Shown here one piece after another: positions 16,160-22,461 of a stretch of 64,000 bases of DNA (position 1 is the stretch's first letter; each line of letters opens with the position of its first letter). The DNA comes from Sphingomonas qomolangmaensis (lineage in GTDB: Bacteria; Pseudomonadota; Alphaproteobacteria; Sphingomonadales; Sphingomonadaceae), in the NCBI RefSeq assembly GCF_024496245.1, contig NZ_CP101740.1, forward strand, positions 2,107,501 through 2,171,500, written 5' to 3'. The notes beneath the pieces are model-generated. The model did not search any database, had not been told where the DNA came from, and worked only from the letters and a program-made list of their open reading frames with translations. The translations under genes were made by a program, and so were the position numbers.

Positions 16160-18838
16160 TTACGCCGCCAGCTTGCGCAGGACGTAGTGGAGGATGCCGC
16201 CGTTAAGGAAATATTCGAGCTCGTTGACGGTATCGATCCGGCACTTGGTCATGAAGCTTTCGCTCGACCCATCGGCGCGGACCAGTTGCACTTCGACGTC
16301 CTGGCGCGGGCGGATATTGGCAACGCCGGTGATCGTGAAGGTCTCGTCACCAGTCAGCCCCAGCGTCTGGCGCGTGACGCCTTCGGCGAACTGCAGCGGC
16401 AACACGCCCATGCCGACCAGGTTCGAGCGGTGGATACGCTCGAAGCTTTCGGTGATCACCGCGCGGACGCCGAGCAAATTGGTGCCCTTGGCCGCCCAGT
16501 CGCGCGACGATCCGGTGCCATATTCCTTGCCCGCGATCACCACCAACGGGGTGCCGTCGGCCTTATGGCGCATCGCTGCGTCATAGATCGGCATCGTCTC
16601 GCCTTCATACCGGCTCATGCCGCCTTCGACGCCGGGGACCATCTCGTTCTTGATGCGGATATTGGCGAAGGTGCCGCGCATCATCACGTCATGGTTGCCG
16701 CGGCGAGCGCCGTAGCTGTTGAAGTCCTTCTTGTTGACCTGATGCTCCTGCAGAAAGCTGCCGGCGGGTGAATCGGCCTTGATGCTGCCGGCGGGCGAGA
16801 TGTGGTCGGTGGTGATCGAATCGCCCAGGATCGCCAGCGGCTTGGCCTCGATGATGTCGGCGACTGGCGCGGGGGTCATCGTCAGCCCCTCGAAATAGGG
16901 CGGGTTGGCGATGTAGGTCGATGCCGCGGGCCAGCGATAGGTGTCCGACCCCTCGACCTGGATGCCTGCCCAATGCGCGTCACCGGCATAGACGTTGCCG
17001 TAGCGCGCGCGGAACATGCCGTCGTCGATATTGGCGGCCATCGTCGAGGCGACCTCTTCGTTGGTCGGCCAGATGTCCTTGAGGAACACCGGGCCATTCG
17101 TGCCCTCGCCCAGCGGCGTGTCGTACATATCCTCGGTCACCGTGCCCTTGATCGCGTAGGCGACCACCAAAGGCGGCGAGGCGAGGAAGTTGGCGCGCAC
17201 ATCGGCCGACACACGGCCTTCGAAGTTGCGATTGCCCGACAGCACCGAGGCGGCGACGATGTCGTTGCCGTTGATCGCCGCCGAGATCGGCTCGGCGAGC
17301 GGCCCCGAATTGCCGATGCAGGTGGTGCAGCCATAGCCGACCAGGTTGAAGCCCATCGCGTTGAGGTCTTCGGTGAGGCCTGCCTTGTCGAGATAGTCGG
17401 TGACGACCTGGCTGCCCGGCGCGAGCGAGGTTTTCACCCAGGGCTTGGGGGTGAGGCCAGCCGCGCGTGCCTTGCGCGCGACCAGGCCGGCAGCGATCAG
17501 CACGCTAGGGTTCGAGGTGTTGGTGCACGAGGTGATCGCAGCGATCACGACGTCGCCATCGCCGATGTCATGCGCAGCGCCCTCGACCGGCACGCGGACC
17601 GCGCCCGCCTTCTTATACACCGTTGCGAGATCGCTGTTGAAGGTGTCGTCGACATGGCCGAGCGAGACGCGATCCTGCGGGCGCTTGGGACCGGCAAGGC
17701 TCGGCTCGACGCTGCTCATGTCGAGTGCGAGCGTGTCGGTGAAGATCGGATCGGCGACGTCGTCCAACCGCCACATGCCCTGCGCCTTGGCATAGGCTTC
17801 AACCAGCGCGACGGTCGCATCGTCACGCCCGGTGAGGCGCATATAATCGAGCGTCTTGTCGTCGATCGGGAAGAAGCCGCACGTCGCGCCATATTCGGGC
17901 GCCATGTTGGCGATCGTCGCGCGATCGGCGAGGCTCATGCTGGCAAGGCCGGGGCCGTAGAATTCGACGAAGCGGCCGACCACGCCCTTGGCGCGCAGCA
18001 TCTGCGTGACCGTGAGCACCAGATCGGTGGCAGTGATGCCCTCCTTCAGCGCGCCAATGAGCTTGAAGCCGACGACTTCGGGGATCAGCATCGAGACGGG
18101 CTGGCCGAGCATCGCCGCCTCAGCCTCGATCCCGCCGACGCCCCAGCCGAGCACGCCCAGGCCGTTGACCATCGTGGTGTGGCTGTCGGTGCCGACCAGC
18201 GTGTCGGGATAGGCGATCATGTCGCCGCCATCGCTGCCCGTCACGCTCGACGACCACACTGCCTGGCTGACATATTCGAGGTTCACCTGGTGGCAGATGC
18301 CGGTGCCGGGGGGGACGACCTTGAAATTGTCGAGCGCCTTCGATCCCCATTTCAGGAACTCGTAGCGCTCGAGGTTGCGCTCATATTCGAGATCGACATT
18401 GTTCTCGAACGCCTTGGGGGTGCCGAATTCGTCGACCATCACCGAGTGATCGATCACCAGATGCACCGGCACCTGCGGGTTGATCTTGGCGGGGTCGCCG
18501 CCCAGCGTGGTGATCGCATCGCGCATCGCCGCGAGATCGACCACGCAAGGCACGCCGGTGAAATCCTGCATCAGCACGCGCGCGGGGCGATACTGGATCT
18601 CGCGGTTCGAGCGGGCATCCTTCTGCCAGTCGACCAACGCCTGCGCGTCTTCGGTGGTGACGGTGGTGCCGTCCTCGAAGCGCAGCATGTTCTCGAGCAG
18701 CACCTTCATCGAGAAGGGCAGGCGGCTGACGTCGCCGAGCTTCGCGGCGGCCTTGGCGAGGCTGTAATAATGATAGGTGGTGCCGCCGACATCGAGCGTG
18801 TCGCGGGTGCCGAGGGTATCGTTGCCGATGGCTGTCAT
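16160..18838 (-). CDS. acnA: Aconitate hydratase A
   Basis: 892 residues, the usual AcnA length. It isomerises citrate to isocitrate in the TCA cycle with a [4Fe-4S] cluster. Cluster cysteines are visible in '[18 protein letters not shown]' and '[14 protein letters not shown]'. Other signature pieces are '[20 protein letters not shown]'-type (near residue 210), '[20 protein letters not shown]' and '[19 protein letters not shown]'. The start ATG has GGAAAGG eight bases upstream. It stands alone: a 200-nt gap lies upstream and the hairpin at 16124-16149 lies downstream. Confidence 0.98.
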
Positions 18839-19037
18839 GGCGTGCCTTTCCGATTGCGGGGAAGCGGCGGGGAGGCGGCGGAAGCCGCGCGCACGCTTGC
18901 CTGCGAGCTTGTGAATGCTTGGTTCCCGGCGGCTGTAGCAAGGGGGTGCCGCGGGGGGAAGGGTGACTTAGGTGGAAGACGCGCGGGCGGCCGTTCGGTT
19001 TCCTGCGCGCGGCCGCCTAGCCCTTTACGAGCCGCTT

Positions 19038-19958
19038 TCAGGCGGCCCGGCGGCGCAGCGCGTCGATCCGCGCCGACAATATCAGATGCGGCATGAACAG
19101 GATCGCGAGCAGCACGAAGGCGGCGGGCACGAAGCCTGGCGCTGCGAGATGGCGCATCGCTGGCAACAGCGCATAGCCGATCGCAAGCGCGGCCAGCGTC
19201 AGGCCGGTGCCGGTCCGCAGCCACATCGCCCGGCCAGCGCCGGGCAGCGCCTCGCCGATTTCGCGGAGGTGGCGTACCGAATGGACGCAGGTGAAATACA
19301 GCGCGAAGCCCCAGAGCGGCGGCAGCAGCAGCATCGCGACCAACGATCCCCCAAGCTGCGCGGCATCGCTCCACCGGTCGCGTTCGATGAGAATGACCAC
19401 GCCGATCATCGCGACCAGCGTCGCGACCGGCGCGATCACCATGCCGCCGCGGCCGATACTGGCGGCGGTATCGACCCCGCCCATCGCCGCGAAGATATCG
19501 CCGACCGCGATCGGGTGCGCGGCGATCGGCAGCGCGACCAGCGCCACCCCTACCCCGGTTTCGACGAATCGCTCGCCGACCGTCGACCAGTCGGCGGCGA
19601 AATGCAGCGCGGCGAGCACGAGGAAGATCGGTAGCGCGACATGCGGCGCCAGCGTCCAGGCGATCGCGGCGACGCCGAGCACCAGCGCATAGAGCGCGGC
19701 AGAATGGGCGTAGGAAGCCGATCCGCTGCGCGCGAAGCGCCGCGCGACCGCCAGGTCGAAAGCGCCATGCGGCAGCCCGCCGAGCAGGAAGACGATCGCC
19801 GCGGCCAGCGAAGCGATCGGCGTGTCGAGCCGAATGCCCGCGAGCAGCGCGGCGCCCAGCGCGCTGCCCATGATCCAGAACGGCGCATTTGCCGGACGAA
19901 ACAGACGCCGGCCGACCGGGCGCGCGATACGCTCCCGGTCGGCCGCCGCGATATTCAC
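19038..19958 (-). CDS. blh: Brp/Blh-family beta-carotene 15,15'-dioxygenase
   Basis: 306 residues with about eight membrane spans. The family's iron-binding histidines sit in 'LLGGLPHGAFDLAVARRFA', 'LVLAALHFAADWSTVGERF' and 'FTCVHSVRHLREIGEALPG'. Blh cleaves beta-carotene symmetrically to two molecules of retinal in the membrane. The GTG start lies 10 nt after the stop of the rhodopsin gene on the same strand, so it is the second gene of a rhodopsin-retinal operon. Its product would supply the chromophore of the upstream protein. Beta-carotene synthesis genes are not in this window. Confidence 0.9.
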   Translation of the reverse strand: MNIAAADRERIARPVGRRLFRPANAPFWIMGSALGAALLAGIRLDTPIASLAAAIVFLLGGLPHGAFDLAVARRFARSGSASYAHSAALYALVLGVAAIAWTLAPHVALPIFLVLAALHFAADWSTVGERFVETGVGVALVALPIAAHPIAVGDIFAAMGGVDTAASIGRGGMVIAPVATLVAMIGVVILIERDRWSDAAQLGGSLVAMLLLPPLWGFALYFTCVHSVRHLREIGEALPGAGRAMWLRTGTGLTLAALAIGYALLPAMRHLAAPGFVPAAFVLLAILFMPHLILSARIDALRRRAA

Positions 19959-19968
19959 GCGACCAAAG

Positions 19969-20742
19969 TCATGCGACGACGGTAGCCGGCGCGGCGGTGT
20001 CGCGCTCGATCGCCGACTTCCGGACTGCGATCATGTAGATCATCACGCCGACGCCAGCCTTGGCGATGATGTCGGCCAGCGTGTAGCCGATCTGGATCGT
20101 CGTTTCGGCGCTCGCGCCCGAGATATCGGCGAAGGGCGCCATATAGACGATCGGGTAGAAGCCCCACGACGCGAAGGTCAGCAACCGCGCCTTGCGGATC
20201 AGCGGCCGGACGGCCTCGGGCTGGCGATCGATCGCGGCGCCAAGCCCGCGGAACAGCTCCCAGACGATGTAGAGGAAGGGGATCGTCGACAAGGTACCCC
20301 ACAAGGCGCGCGTGCCGTTGTCGGCAGCGACTTCGCCCGGATAGCCCAGCGCGATCATCAGGACCGCGGCGGCACCGAGGCGCATCGACTTCGACACCGT
20401 CTCCGATTCGGACAAGCGCATGACCAGCACCAGTTCGATCAGCAGCAGCGGGACGGTCAGCAACCAATCGACGTAGCGATAGGCATCGTTGAACGCATAT
20501 CCGGTCGCGGTGATCTCGGCACCGCGCACTTCGTAGGCGGCGGTCCAGCTCTCGAAGATGCGGAAGTAATGATAGGCTGCGATCGCGCAGACCAGTCCCG
20601 AAATCACCAGCGCGGTACGATAAGGCGGGGTTACCTGCGACCTGCCGAACCACAGGAACAATGCAGCCGCAGACATGGTCGCGAACGTTAGAGAAAACGC
20701 ATTATATATGAGAAAATATTGCCCAGCGGATACGGTTTCCAT
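19969..20742 (-). CDS. Xanthorhodopsin-like light-driven proton pump
   Basis: 257 residues, seven membrane helices. Helix C reads 'RYVDWLLTVPLLLIELVLVM' and gives D92 (acceptor), T96 and E103 (donor), the D-T-E set of outward proton pumps. H58 in 'AAYHYFRIFESW' matches the His that pairs with the acceptor. L100 is at the proteorhodopsin-105 tuning position and predicts green absorption. K228 in 'ADIIAKAGVG' binds retinal. G149 in 'ALWGTLSTIPF' matches the glycine that opens the carotenoid-antenna site in xanthorhodopsin. Start: ATG with AAGGA eight bases upstream. It would convert light into proton motive force; blh follows directly. Confidence 0.95.
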   Translation of the reverse strand: METVSAGQYFLIYNAFSLTFATMSAAALFLWFGRSQVTPPYRTALVISGLVCAIAAYHYFRIFESWTAAYEVRGAEITATGYAFNDAYRYVDWLLTVPLLLIELVLVMRLSESETVSKSMRLGAAAVLMIALGYPGEVAADNGTRALWGTLSTIPFLYIVWELFRGLGAAIDRQPEAVRPLIRKARLLTFASWGFYPIVYMAPFADISGASAETTIQIGYTLADIIAKAGVGVMIYMIAVRKSAIERDTAAPATVVA

Positions 20743-20950
20743 ATCTCAATCCTTTTGCACGGCATTGTTCGCCGCCCCGCCCATCGCGGTCGACTTTTCT
20801 ATGAAGGTGCTGATTGGGATATCCGCCTTAACTTGGGGTCATCCAAGCTAGGCCTTATGGCGTAGGTATAAAGCGGGTAGCGGCGCGGCGCAGGGTGCGC
20901 GGGGTCGGGAAGGCCCGACTCGAAGTATTGCGCACGGGCTAGCGGCGACC
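20743..20950 (-). promoter_or_regulatory. Upstream region of the rhodopsin-blh operon
   Basis: This gap holds no gene I can support. The AAGGA ribosome binding site of the rhodopsin gene lies at about 20750-20755. About 90-105 nt upstream of the ATG is a dyad, CTTGG-GGTCAT-CCAAG (20832-20847), that could be an operator. I cannot identify a convincing -35/-10 pair. Beyond 20951 the gap is a repeat element. Confidence 0.3.
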
Positions 20951-21070
20951 ACTCCCCTCCCTGAAAGGGAGGGGCGGGGATGGGCCGGGTGGTCGCGGCA
21001 CGACTGCTCAAGGTGGGCAGGGCGCCGTAGCATCATGCCCGCACCCACCCCCTCCCTTTCAGGAGGGGAG
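20951..21070. repeat. Inverted repeat, family D (copy 1)
   Basis: Left arm 20951-20992 begins 'ACTCCCCTCCCTGAAAGGGA' and continues GGGGCGGGGATGGG. Right arm 21037-21070 reads 'CACCCACCCCCTCCCTTTCA' then GGAGGGGAG. Each arm is itself a small hairpin, and the two arms are reverse complements; the right arm has lost three G. It sits directly downstream of the phosphomannomutase gene and may end its transcript. Confidence 0.85.
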
Positions 21071-21078
21071 ATTAGGCC

Positions 21079-22461
21079 TCAGTGCGCGGCTTGTGCCCCG
21101 CGCTCGAGCCCGCTCGCCGCGAGCTGGGCGTCGATCATCGCCATCAGGCGATCGAGCCCTGCCTGGTCCTTCGCCTCGGCGCGCGCGACCAGCACGTCCT
21201 GGGTGTTCGAGGCGCGCAGCAGCCACCAGCCATCGGGGGTGTTCACCCGCGCGCCATCGGTGTTGTTGATGTCGGCACCCTCGGCCTTCAGCCGCGCGAG
21301 CACTTCGTCGATCACCGCGAACTTGCGGCTTTCATCGACCTGGAAGCGCATCTCCGGCGTGTTGACCATCGCCGGCATCTCGCCGCGCAGCTGGGTCATC
21401 GACTTGCCGATCATGTGCGCGGCGCGGATCAGCCGCACCGCGGCATATTGCGCGTCGTCGAAGCCATAATATTCGTGCGCGAAGAAGATGTGTCCGCTCA
21501 TCTCGCCCGCGAGCGGCGAATCGGTTTCCTTCATCTTCATCTTGATCAGGCTGTGGCCGGTCTTCCACATCAACGGCTTGCCGCCGAGCTCCTCGATCCG
21601 GTCGTACAGCGCCTGGCTGGCCTTCACATCGGCGATGATCGTCGCGCCGGGCAGCTCGCGCAGCACAGGTTCGGCCAGAATGGACAGAAGCTGATCGCCC
21701 CAGATCACGCGGCCCTCGCCATCGATCGCGCCGATCCGGTCGCCATCGCCATCGAACGCCAGTCCGAAATCGAGCTGCTTCTCGGCGACGAGCGCCTTGA
21801 GATCGGCGAGGTTCTTTTCTTCGGTAGGATCGGGATGATGGTTGGGAAAATCGCCGTCGACATCGGTGTAGAGCAAGTGATGCTCGCCGGGCAGGAGCTT
21901 GACCAGCTTCTCGATCACCGGGCCCGAAACGCCGTTGCCCGCGTCCCAGCCGATCCGATAGGTGCCGCCGGCATAGCCGGCCATCAGCCGACCGACATAA
22001 TCGTCCATGATGTCGACGTCGGTGACGACGCCCTCGCCGGTCTCCCAATCGCCCTCGGCGGCCATCGTGCCGAGCGTCTGGATGTCGGCGCCAAAGAACG
22101 GCCGATGCTGCATCACCATCTTGAAGCCGTTATACTCGGCGGGATTATGGCTGCCGGTTATCTGAATGCCGCCATCCACCTCTAGCGTGGCTTCGGCATA
22201 ATAGAGCATCGGCGTGGGGCCGAGGCCGACGCGGACCACGTCGACGCCCGCGCCGGTGAGGCCGGCGACGAGCGCCGCCTCGAGCTCGGGCGACGAATGC
22301 CGGCCATCGCGTCCCACCGCCACGCGCGTACCACCCGCGCGCCGCACCAACGTCGCGAACCCGCGCCCGATCGCGTCGGCATCGGCGGCGCCGAGCGTCT
22401 TGCCGACGATTCCGCGGATGTCGTATTCACGAAGCGACGTGTGGTCGAAACGATGGGGCAT
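21079..22461 (-). CDS. Phosphomannomutase/phosphoglucomutase (alpha-D-phosphohexomutase)
   Basis: 460 residues. It moves phosphate between C1 and C6 of mannose or glucose, feeding nucleotide-sugar, exopolysaccharide and LPS synthesis. The active-site phosphoserine loop is '[20 protein letters not shown]', the metal loop is '[19 protein letters not shown]', the sugar-binding loop is '[20 protein letters not shown]', and the phosphate-binding tail is '[15 protein letters not shown]'. This is the bifunctional AlgC-like arrangement. Start ATG at 22461 with GGAGACC upstream; an open frame continues upstream through repeat DNA and is not coding. Confidence 0.93.

Follow-up and report, generated by a model that had tools for sequence, protein, structure and literature searches.

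The xanthorhodopsin (XR) that Sphingomonas qomolangmaensis encodes next to a retinal-forming dioxygenase is, with a probability of about 0.6, a retinal-bound outward proton pump with a 4-keto-type opening, which most likely holds an antenna carotenoid derived from the host ketolase CrtW. That it pumps, that it binds a carotenoid, that energy is transferred and which pigment is involved are all points that we infer. In the proposed mechanism, XR supplied with retinal by the adjacent dioxygenase (Blh) would pump protons outward in the light. The opening between helices E and F, at Gly149, would be of the 4-keto type, with Thr153 beside the keto ring and the nonpolar Phe204 at the bottom, and would be occupied by an astaxanthin- or erythroxanthin-like 4-keto carotenoid made by the host CrtW and hydroxylases. 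The bound carotenoid would then hand blue-green light energy to the retinal. The combination of T153 and F204 in a CrtW-bearing genome is best read, as the simplest account of these sequences, as that of a keto-type antenna xanthorhodopsin. The gene as such is another xanthorhodopsin; the novelty lies in the coupling between pocket residues and ketolase, which is the part likely to surprise specialists.

The XR-blh gene pair and its surroundings

Two genes occupy positions 19038-20742 on the minus strand of the window (the whole stretch of 64,000 nucleotides that was analysed), with 10 nt between the stop of XR and the start of blh. Family searches assigned XR to PF01036 and Blh to PF15461 and TIGR03753, the latter at 131.2 bits against a cut-off of 95.25, which identifies a Brp/Blh beta-carotene dioxygenase; a PADLOC search with Blh returned no match. 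The two-gene pair with its 10-nt gap, as described in the initial annotation, is thus clear in both families by domain search, and the residues named there (D92, T96, E103, H58, L100, K228 and G149) are each found at the number given. The microbial rhodopsin fold, the DTE-type motif and the retinal lysine place the protein in the xanthorhodopsin family. We infer that XR and blh are co-transcribed and that the retinal comes from the adjacent Blh. A simple scan of positions 18838-21400 gave no sigma-70-like promoter and no terminator, where 0.5 and 1.5 were expected.

The predicted structure of XR (pLDDT 86.5) superposes on psXR, SrXR, GR, Kin4B8 and the zeaxanthin-bound 8i2z. Among the PDB matches listed (60 of 161), the best four were psXR (9wfa), SrXR (3ddl), GR (6nwd) and Kin4B8 (7ytb), all of XR type, and residue 149 pairs glycine to glycine with each of them.

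Features of the XR-blh locus, the carotenoid pocket and related loci
Feature	Position	Strand	Description
XR, xanthorhodopsin gene	19969..20742	-	257 aa; DTE-type proton pump motif (D92/T96/E103, K228, H58)
blh, beta-carotene 15,15'-dioxygenase (retinal synthesis)	19038..19958	-	306 aa; GTG start
Codon of Gly149, opening	20296..20298	-	SrXR Gly156, Kin4B8 Gly153, GR Gly178
Codon of Thr153, keto-ring side of opening	20284..20286	-	GR Thr182, SrXR Thr160, Kin4B8 Thr157
Codon of Tyr200, carotenoid-site tyrosine	20143..20145	-	SrXR Tyr207, Kin4B8 Tyr204
Codon of Phe204, bottom of carotenoid site	20131..20133	-	SrXR Met211, GR Met233, Kin4B8 Ser208 (PMC12308411 register)
Upstream element GCTACC..CTTTATACCTACG....CTAGCT	20846..20881	-	common to Sphingomonas sp. 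37zxx (L040/L083); about 104-139 nt upstream of the start codon
PAS/LOV-LuxR example	L041:5959-6588	-	upstream of XR
PAS/LOV-LuxR example	L153:5073-5726		upstream of XR
PAS/LOV-LuxR example	L091:5176-5841		upstream of XR
PAS/LOV-LuxR example	L144:4968-5744		upstream of XR
PAS/LOV-LuxR example	L149:4963-5739		upstream of XR
Host photosynthesis genes (bchD, crtD, bchZ, pufL, pufM, puhE)	C1:405000-444800 (G000; L036, L037)		assigned by family

Rhodopsin matches were found in 72 of 295 same-genus genomes, at 80 places. Of the 68 places that were fetched, 36 are XR-type including the gene described here. Within the sequence fetched, a Blh homologue accompanies all 35 of the other XR-type places and 77 of 80 named loci, chosen as the best of 364, from other genomes. 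The genus also commonly carries another rhodopsin type that is not XR (L006-L035), and a distant Blh homologue lies in 28 of those 30 loci. Rhodopsin remnants were also seen, namely a partial match that contains an in-frame TGA and a pair of short fragments (G126:C12:455036-455377, G216:C1:2949539-2949721 and G169:C1:976570-976680).

The rest of the intergenic DNA around the upstream element shows little conservation between S. qomolangmaensis and 37zxx, and the element may be a promoter or operator. Among 97 non-redundant loci whose upstream sequence was long enough, 60 have a PAS-LuxR gene directly upstream of XR. All five upstream regulators scanned carry PAS_9 and GerE domains, and all four inspected contain the motif GRNC(R/K)FL, which we take to be the LOV flavin site; these regulators are presumably EL222-like. 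No PAS-LuxR gene lies beside XR in S. qomolangmaensis, and one match of 64% identity is located elsewhere in the genome (C1:2665716-2666288). The window contains no exact match to an EL222-type box. An EL222-type palindrome occurs in 20 of 99 XR upstream regions (among them L084-L088, L090, L091, L112, L116, L135, L137 and L138), and the palindrome lies 129-130 nt before the start of the match in 5 of the 12 regions listed. A PpsR-like motif, TGT-N12-ACA, was set aside as a candidate; it occurs at eight sites in the window against 3.2 expected, a count of eight being reached in 1 of 100 shuffles, and none of the sites is upstream of XR.

Pocket residues and the carotenoid genes of the host

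The initial annotation had placed G149 at the position of xanthorhodopsin Gly156 and had taken the glycine as a pointer to an antenna. The placement stands, as alignments and superposition alike keep residue 149 at the fenestration, where the glycine of SrXR forms the opening. The pointer is less telling, because glycine occupies this column in all 121 XR rows compared, the thermophilic rhodopsin TR among them; Gly149 alone is thus a mere mark of the XR clade and was dropped as a strain-specific sign, T153 and F204 being more informative. Neither is the glycine sufficient, since the actinorhodopsin ActR-13023 carries it yet bound no canthaxanthin (PMC8113403). The tyrosine conserved in carotenoid antennas is present as Y200, in a column that carries Tyr in 118 of 121 rows.

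On helix E the residues G149/T150/T153/F156 reproduce the keto-type lock of GR (G/T/T/F at 178/179/182/185). The double mutation T179G/T182G reduced canthaxanthin binding by GR from 87% to 19% and T179G alone reduced it to 41%; both threonines were interpreted as keto-ring contacts, T182 being never mutated singly (PMC9151804). Thr at 153 is not sufficient either, because Kin4B8 has Thr at this position and prefers hydroxy carotenoids. For Kin4B8, Gly153, Thr157, Tyr204, Ser208 and Tyr209 are given as the key fenestration residues (PMC13093654). According to a published proposal, 3-hydroxy binders have polar residues at the bottom of the site where 4-keto binders have nonpolar ones, and the zeaxanthin binding of Kin4B8 S208A was 2% of that of the wild type (PMC12308411). 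In the register of that paper, F204/A205 form a nonpolar bottom corresponding to Met211/Ala212 of SrXR, and polar residues, as found at 208/209 in Kin4B8 and in KR1, are absent here. The Kin4B8 residue opposite position 204 depends on the register, being Tyr209 in the MAFFT alignment and Ser208 in the ungapped register of Table 2 of PMC12308411.

The host genome (3.43 Mb in one contig, 99.75% complete) contains a single rhodopsin match. Its crtY, crtI and crtB genes are clustered, crtY and crtI scoring above their NCBIfam cut-offs and the best match of CrtB below its own. The gene between crtI and crtB resembles the LOG gene reported at that place. The best family for CrtW is NF045690 at 236 bits, below the model cut-off of 350, and the HDxxH and HxxHH motifs are present. 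The stop of crtW overlaps the start (ATGA) of an FA_hydroxylase gene, read as CrtZ, and a CrtG candidate elsewhere in the genome shares 68-80% identity with genes that neighbour crtY in the stretches of eight relatives; the names CrtZ and CrtG were given on the basis of Pfam FA_hydroxylase, position and similarity, and neither protein matched an NCBIfam model. Two further FA_desaturase matches were seen in the genome (L079, L082). Together, CrtW, the CrtZ-like gene, crtY/crtI/crtB and the CrtG candidate make 4-keto and hydroxy carotenoids plausible, and the presence of the CrtZ-like and CrtG-like genes means that hydroxy carotenoids may compete for the site. A LOG gene between crtI and crtB is described in PMC5989583, by whose grouping the genes would make the host a crtW+crtG 'orange' genotype, for which keto, 3-hydroxy and 2-hydroxy carotenoids are expected. 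The earlier suggestion that a green-absorbing proton pump could be coupled in this strain to carotenoids of its own making therefore gains support from the carotenoid genes of the host and from pocket residues that covary with carotenoid gene content. Where a hydroxylated or a keto carotenoid had been named without preference, T153/F204 point to 4-keto, and the two types are not alike in this respect.

Both pufL and pufM are also present, and the nearby bchD, bchZ, crtD and puhE reach NCBIfam cut-offs. The host is thus a potential dual phototroph, because reaction-centre genes and a proton-pump rhodopsin occur in one genome, a condition described for S. glacialis AAP5 (PMC7762795) and for Tardiphaga (PMC7701988). 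Rhodopsin and reaction centre are not enriched together in the genus (13 of 295 genomes with both, 10.3 expected, p 0.33).

Covariation of residues 153 and 204 with the host ketolase

Whether any XR column tracks the host ketolase is a question set by PMC12308411, PMC9151804 and PMC13093654. Column 204 was examined first because of PMC12308411, and column 153 emerged from the scan. Genomes were scored CrtW+ when the CrtW of S. qomolangmaensis matched at E up to 1e-10, which gave 75 of 295 genus genomes and 24 of 50 named genomes, one weak match uncounted. The weak match of L089 (E 1.4e-12, with 33% identity across a portion of the protein) was scored negative, and L086 was scored CrtW+ despite an in-frame TGA within the match. 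CrtW was the best family, below the model cut-off, for all four relatives' matches checked (L176, L185, L190 and L166), of which only L176 comes from a genome of the 100-row set. CrtW may be hidden in incomplete MAGs and in G148 and G221, which are 83-88% complete and were scored negative. The 100 rows comprise 71 and 29; 15 same-genus rows repeating named loci were omitted and L131 was replaced by its same-genus copy G264. Two further near-identical rows were removed for the 69-row analyses.

Across these 100 XR-bearing genomes, CrtW was found with Ala153 in 2 of 57, with Ser153 in 21 of 26, with Thr153 in 13 of 15 and with Met153 in 0 of 2, and with Phe204 in 18 of 20 as against Tyr204 in 18 of 80. 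Taken together, T/S153 with F204 was accompanied by CrtW in 18 of 18 rows and A153 with Y204 in 2 of 57. The near-identical relative G226 (XR 99.6% identical) is likewise T153/F204 and CrtW+. The rows departing from this pattern without a CrtW match are Ser-Tyr (L100, L103, L136, L138 and L147), Thr-Tyr (L112 and L116) and Met-Phe (L160 and L162), and two Ala-Tyr rows (G164 and L146) have CrtW. Among the 29 genomes beyond the discovery set, Ala153 was CrtW+ in 0 of 23 and Ser/Thr153 in 4 of 6 (one of the four, L086, with its in-frame TGA); this check applied the rule of the first set, the prediction not having been recorded beforehand, and its Ala153 rows are mostly kin of earlier rows.

An uncorrected scan of 133 variable columns and 388 residue tests in 69 rows ranked column 153 first (Ala 2 CrtW+ and 31 CrtW-, other residues 29 and 7; p 1.6e-10), column 244 second (Glu, p 3e-6) and column 204 third (Phe 17 CrtW+ and 2 CrtW-, Tyr 14 and 36; p 5e-6). 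A tree-aware scan was then made, as a correlated-evolution likelihood test on an XR gene tree built with columns 153 and 204 excluded, a limit being that the gene tree stands in place of the species tree. Out of 120 variable columns (median LR 3.7), residue 153 ranked first with LR 52.9 and residue 204 second with 28.5, followed by column 244 with 14.5. When CrtW was simulated on the tree 300 times, the maxima were 17.0 and 15.4, and none of the 300 simulations reached the value of 153 or of 204. With another tree, carefully built from 69 rows, LR was 42.9 for 153 and 24.4 for 204, and removal of the 46 rows named as MAGs (54 remaining) left 38.7 and 23.7. Support was weaker by independent pairs on well-supported branches: in the 69 rows, residue 153 had 5.8 concordant versus 0.0 opposite of 8 pairs (median p 0.031); in the 100-row tree it had 4.6 versus 0.0 of 6 (median p 0.0625). 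Residue 204 was not significant by independent pairs in either the 69- or the 100-row set. Column 244 (Ala in this strain; C-terminal and outside the named pocket) had no independent-pair support and was rejected, its association with CrtW being probably due to relatedness; column 205 was also rejected (LR 7.1, p 0.13).

We put at even odds a broader proposal, that residues 153 and 204 of alphaproteobacterial XRs form a two-site switch, repeatedly evolved to match the host carotenoid, with Ala/Tyr where there are hydroxy carotenoids only, and Ser or Thr, then Phe, with CrtW. If this were true, most such rhodopsins would be antenna rhodopsins in nature, with an antenna type readable from the genome, and the potential dual phototroph described here would be a keto-type example. 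A residue pair that tracks the ketolase amounts to a testable code predicting antenna type from sequence, and the covariation is indirect evidence of selection on carotenoid binding across a large group. Among the papers listed from the literature searched, which covered few subscription papers, neither such residue-ketolase covariation nor a ketocarotenoid-rhodopsin link in Sphingomonas was seen.

Alternative explanations and known systems

The opening could instead bind nostoxanthin or zeaxanthin, in line with reports on S. glacialis AAP5, and the ketolase product would then be only photoprotective. The CrtZ-like gene and CrtG candidate of the host favour such a hydroxy-carotenoid antenna, as do the nostoxanthin-bound XR of AAP5 and the function of nostoxanthin in Kin4B8 (PMC12308411). 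We consider it rather unlikely, since the protein has T153/F204, whereas the S. glacialis loci have A153/Y204 without a CrtW match, and since 3-hydroxy binders are described with polar bottom residues (PMC12308411), whereas Phe has no hydroxyl. The opening could also be merely inherited, the pump working with retinal only and binding no carotenoid in the cell. This is distinctly unlikely, because the pocket residues covary with host carotenoid genes above all other columns tested, which is hard to square with an empty pocket, although the glycine is invariant in the rows compared, TR included, and PMC7762795, under the conditions of that study, found neither salinixanthin in pigment extracts of AAP5 nor XR in its membranes.

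That covariation might itself be an artefact or a trace of shared history, CrtW and residues 153/204 each marking lineage, habitat or co-transfer with no interaction between pigment and protein. Relatedness among the rows is strong, many CrtW-negative rows are related MAGs, and the independent-pair tests are low in power; however, two columns among the named pocket residues come top of 120 in the tree-aware scan, above anything produced by the tree-simulated nulls, and the result survives removal of the named MAGs, so that we regard this explanation as improbable. A role as light sensor in place of energy converter was once proposed for the AAP5 XR because its operon includes a histidine kinase gene (PMC7762795), and the PAS/LOV-LuxR regulator just upstream of XR in so many related loci would suit it. 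For the present gene it is highly improbable, given the complete D/T/E pump motif, the adjacent Blh, the lack of any regulator or kinase called beside XR and the light-driven ATP gain reported for S. glacialis with XR (PMC12306673).

A 4-keto antenna on a proton-pumping XR is therefore the reading that we carry into the comparison with known systems. The closest is Sphingomonas sp. 37zxx (L083/G121), in which XR is 90% identical, with T153/F204 and blh adjacent, CrtW is 84% identical and pufLM is present; unlike the single-contig genome of S. qomolangmaensis, it is a draft genome of another strain, and the literature searched gave no publication naming it. The 37zxx assembly also has two full-length crtY matches (C129:6316-7434 and C60:7219-8331), one on a 7.7-kb contig, reflecting a second copy or contamination.

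Farther away, Gloeobacter rhodopsin (GR, 6nwd) is 47% identical, its G178/T179/S181/T182/F185 all being identical to G149/T150/S152/T153/F156 here, and Salinibacter xanthorhodopsin (SrXR, 3ddl) is 54% identical. The hosts of GR and SrXR belong to other phyla than S. qomolangmaensis. Both proteins are 4-keto carotenoid binders (PMC9151804, PMC12308411), and unlike the present XR, with Phe at 204, they have Met. Kin4B8 (7ytb, 8i2z) differs in having Ser208/Tyr209 at the bottom of its site, and its best antennas are 3-hydroxy carotenoids (PMC12308411).

S. glacialis shares the XR-blh pair and the same pump motif, and pufLM also occurs in the genome of one of its loci (G048, L144). In contrast to S. 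qomolangmaensis, its loci L144 and L155, from strains other than AAP5, encode an XR that is 68-69% identical with A153/Y204 and lack a CrtW match, and L144 has a PAS/LOV-LuxR gene upstream of XR. Thus S. qomolangmaensis appears as a natural counterpart of S. glacialis AAP5, a user of nostoxanthin, with the same two light-harvesting gene sets and probably another antenna pigment.
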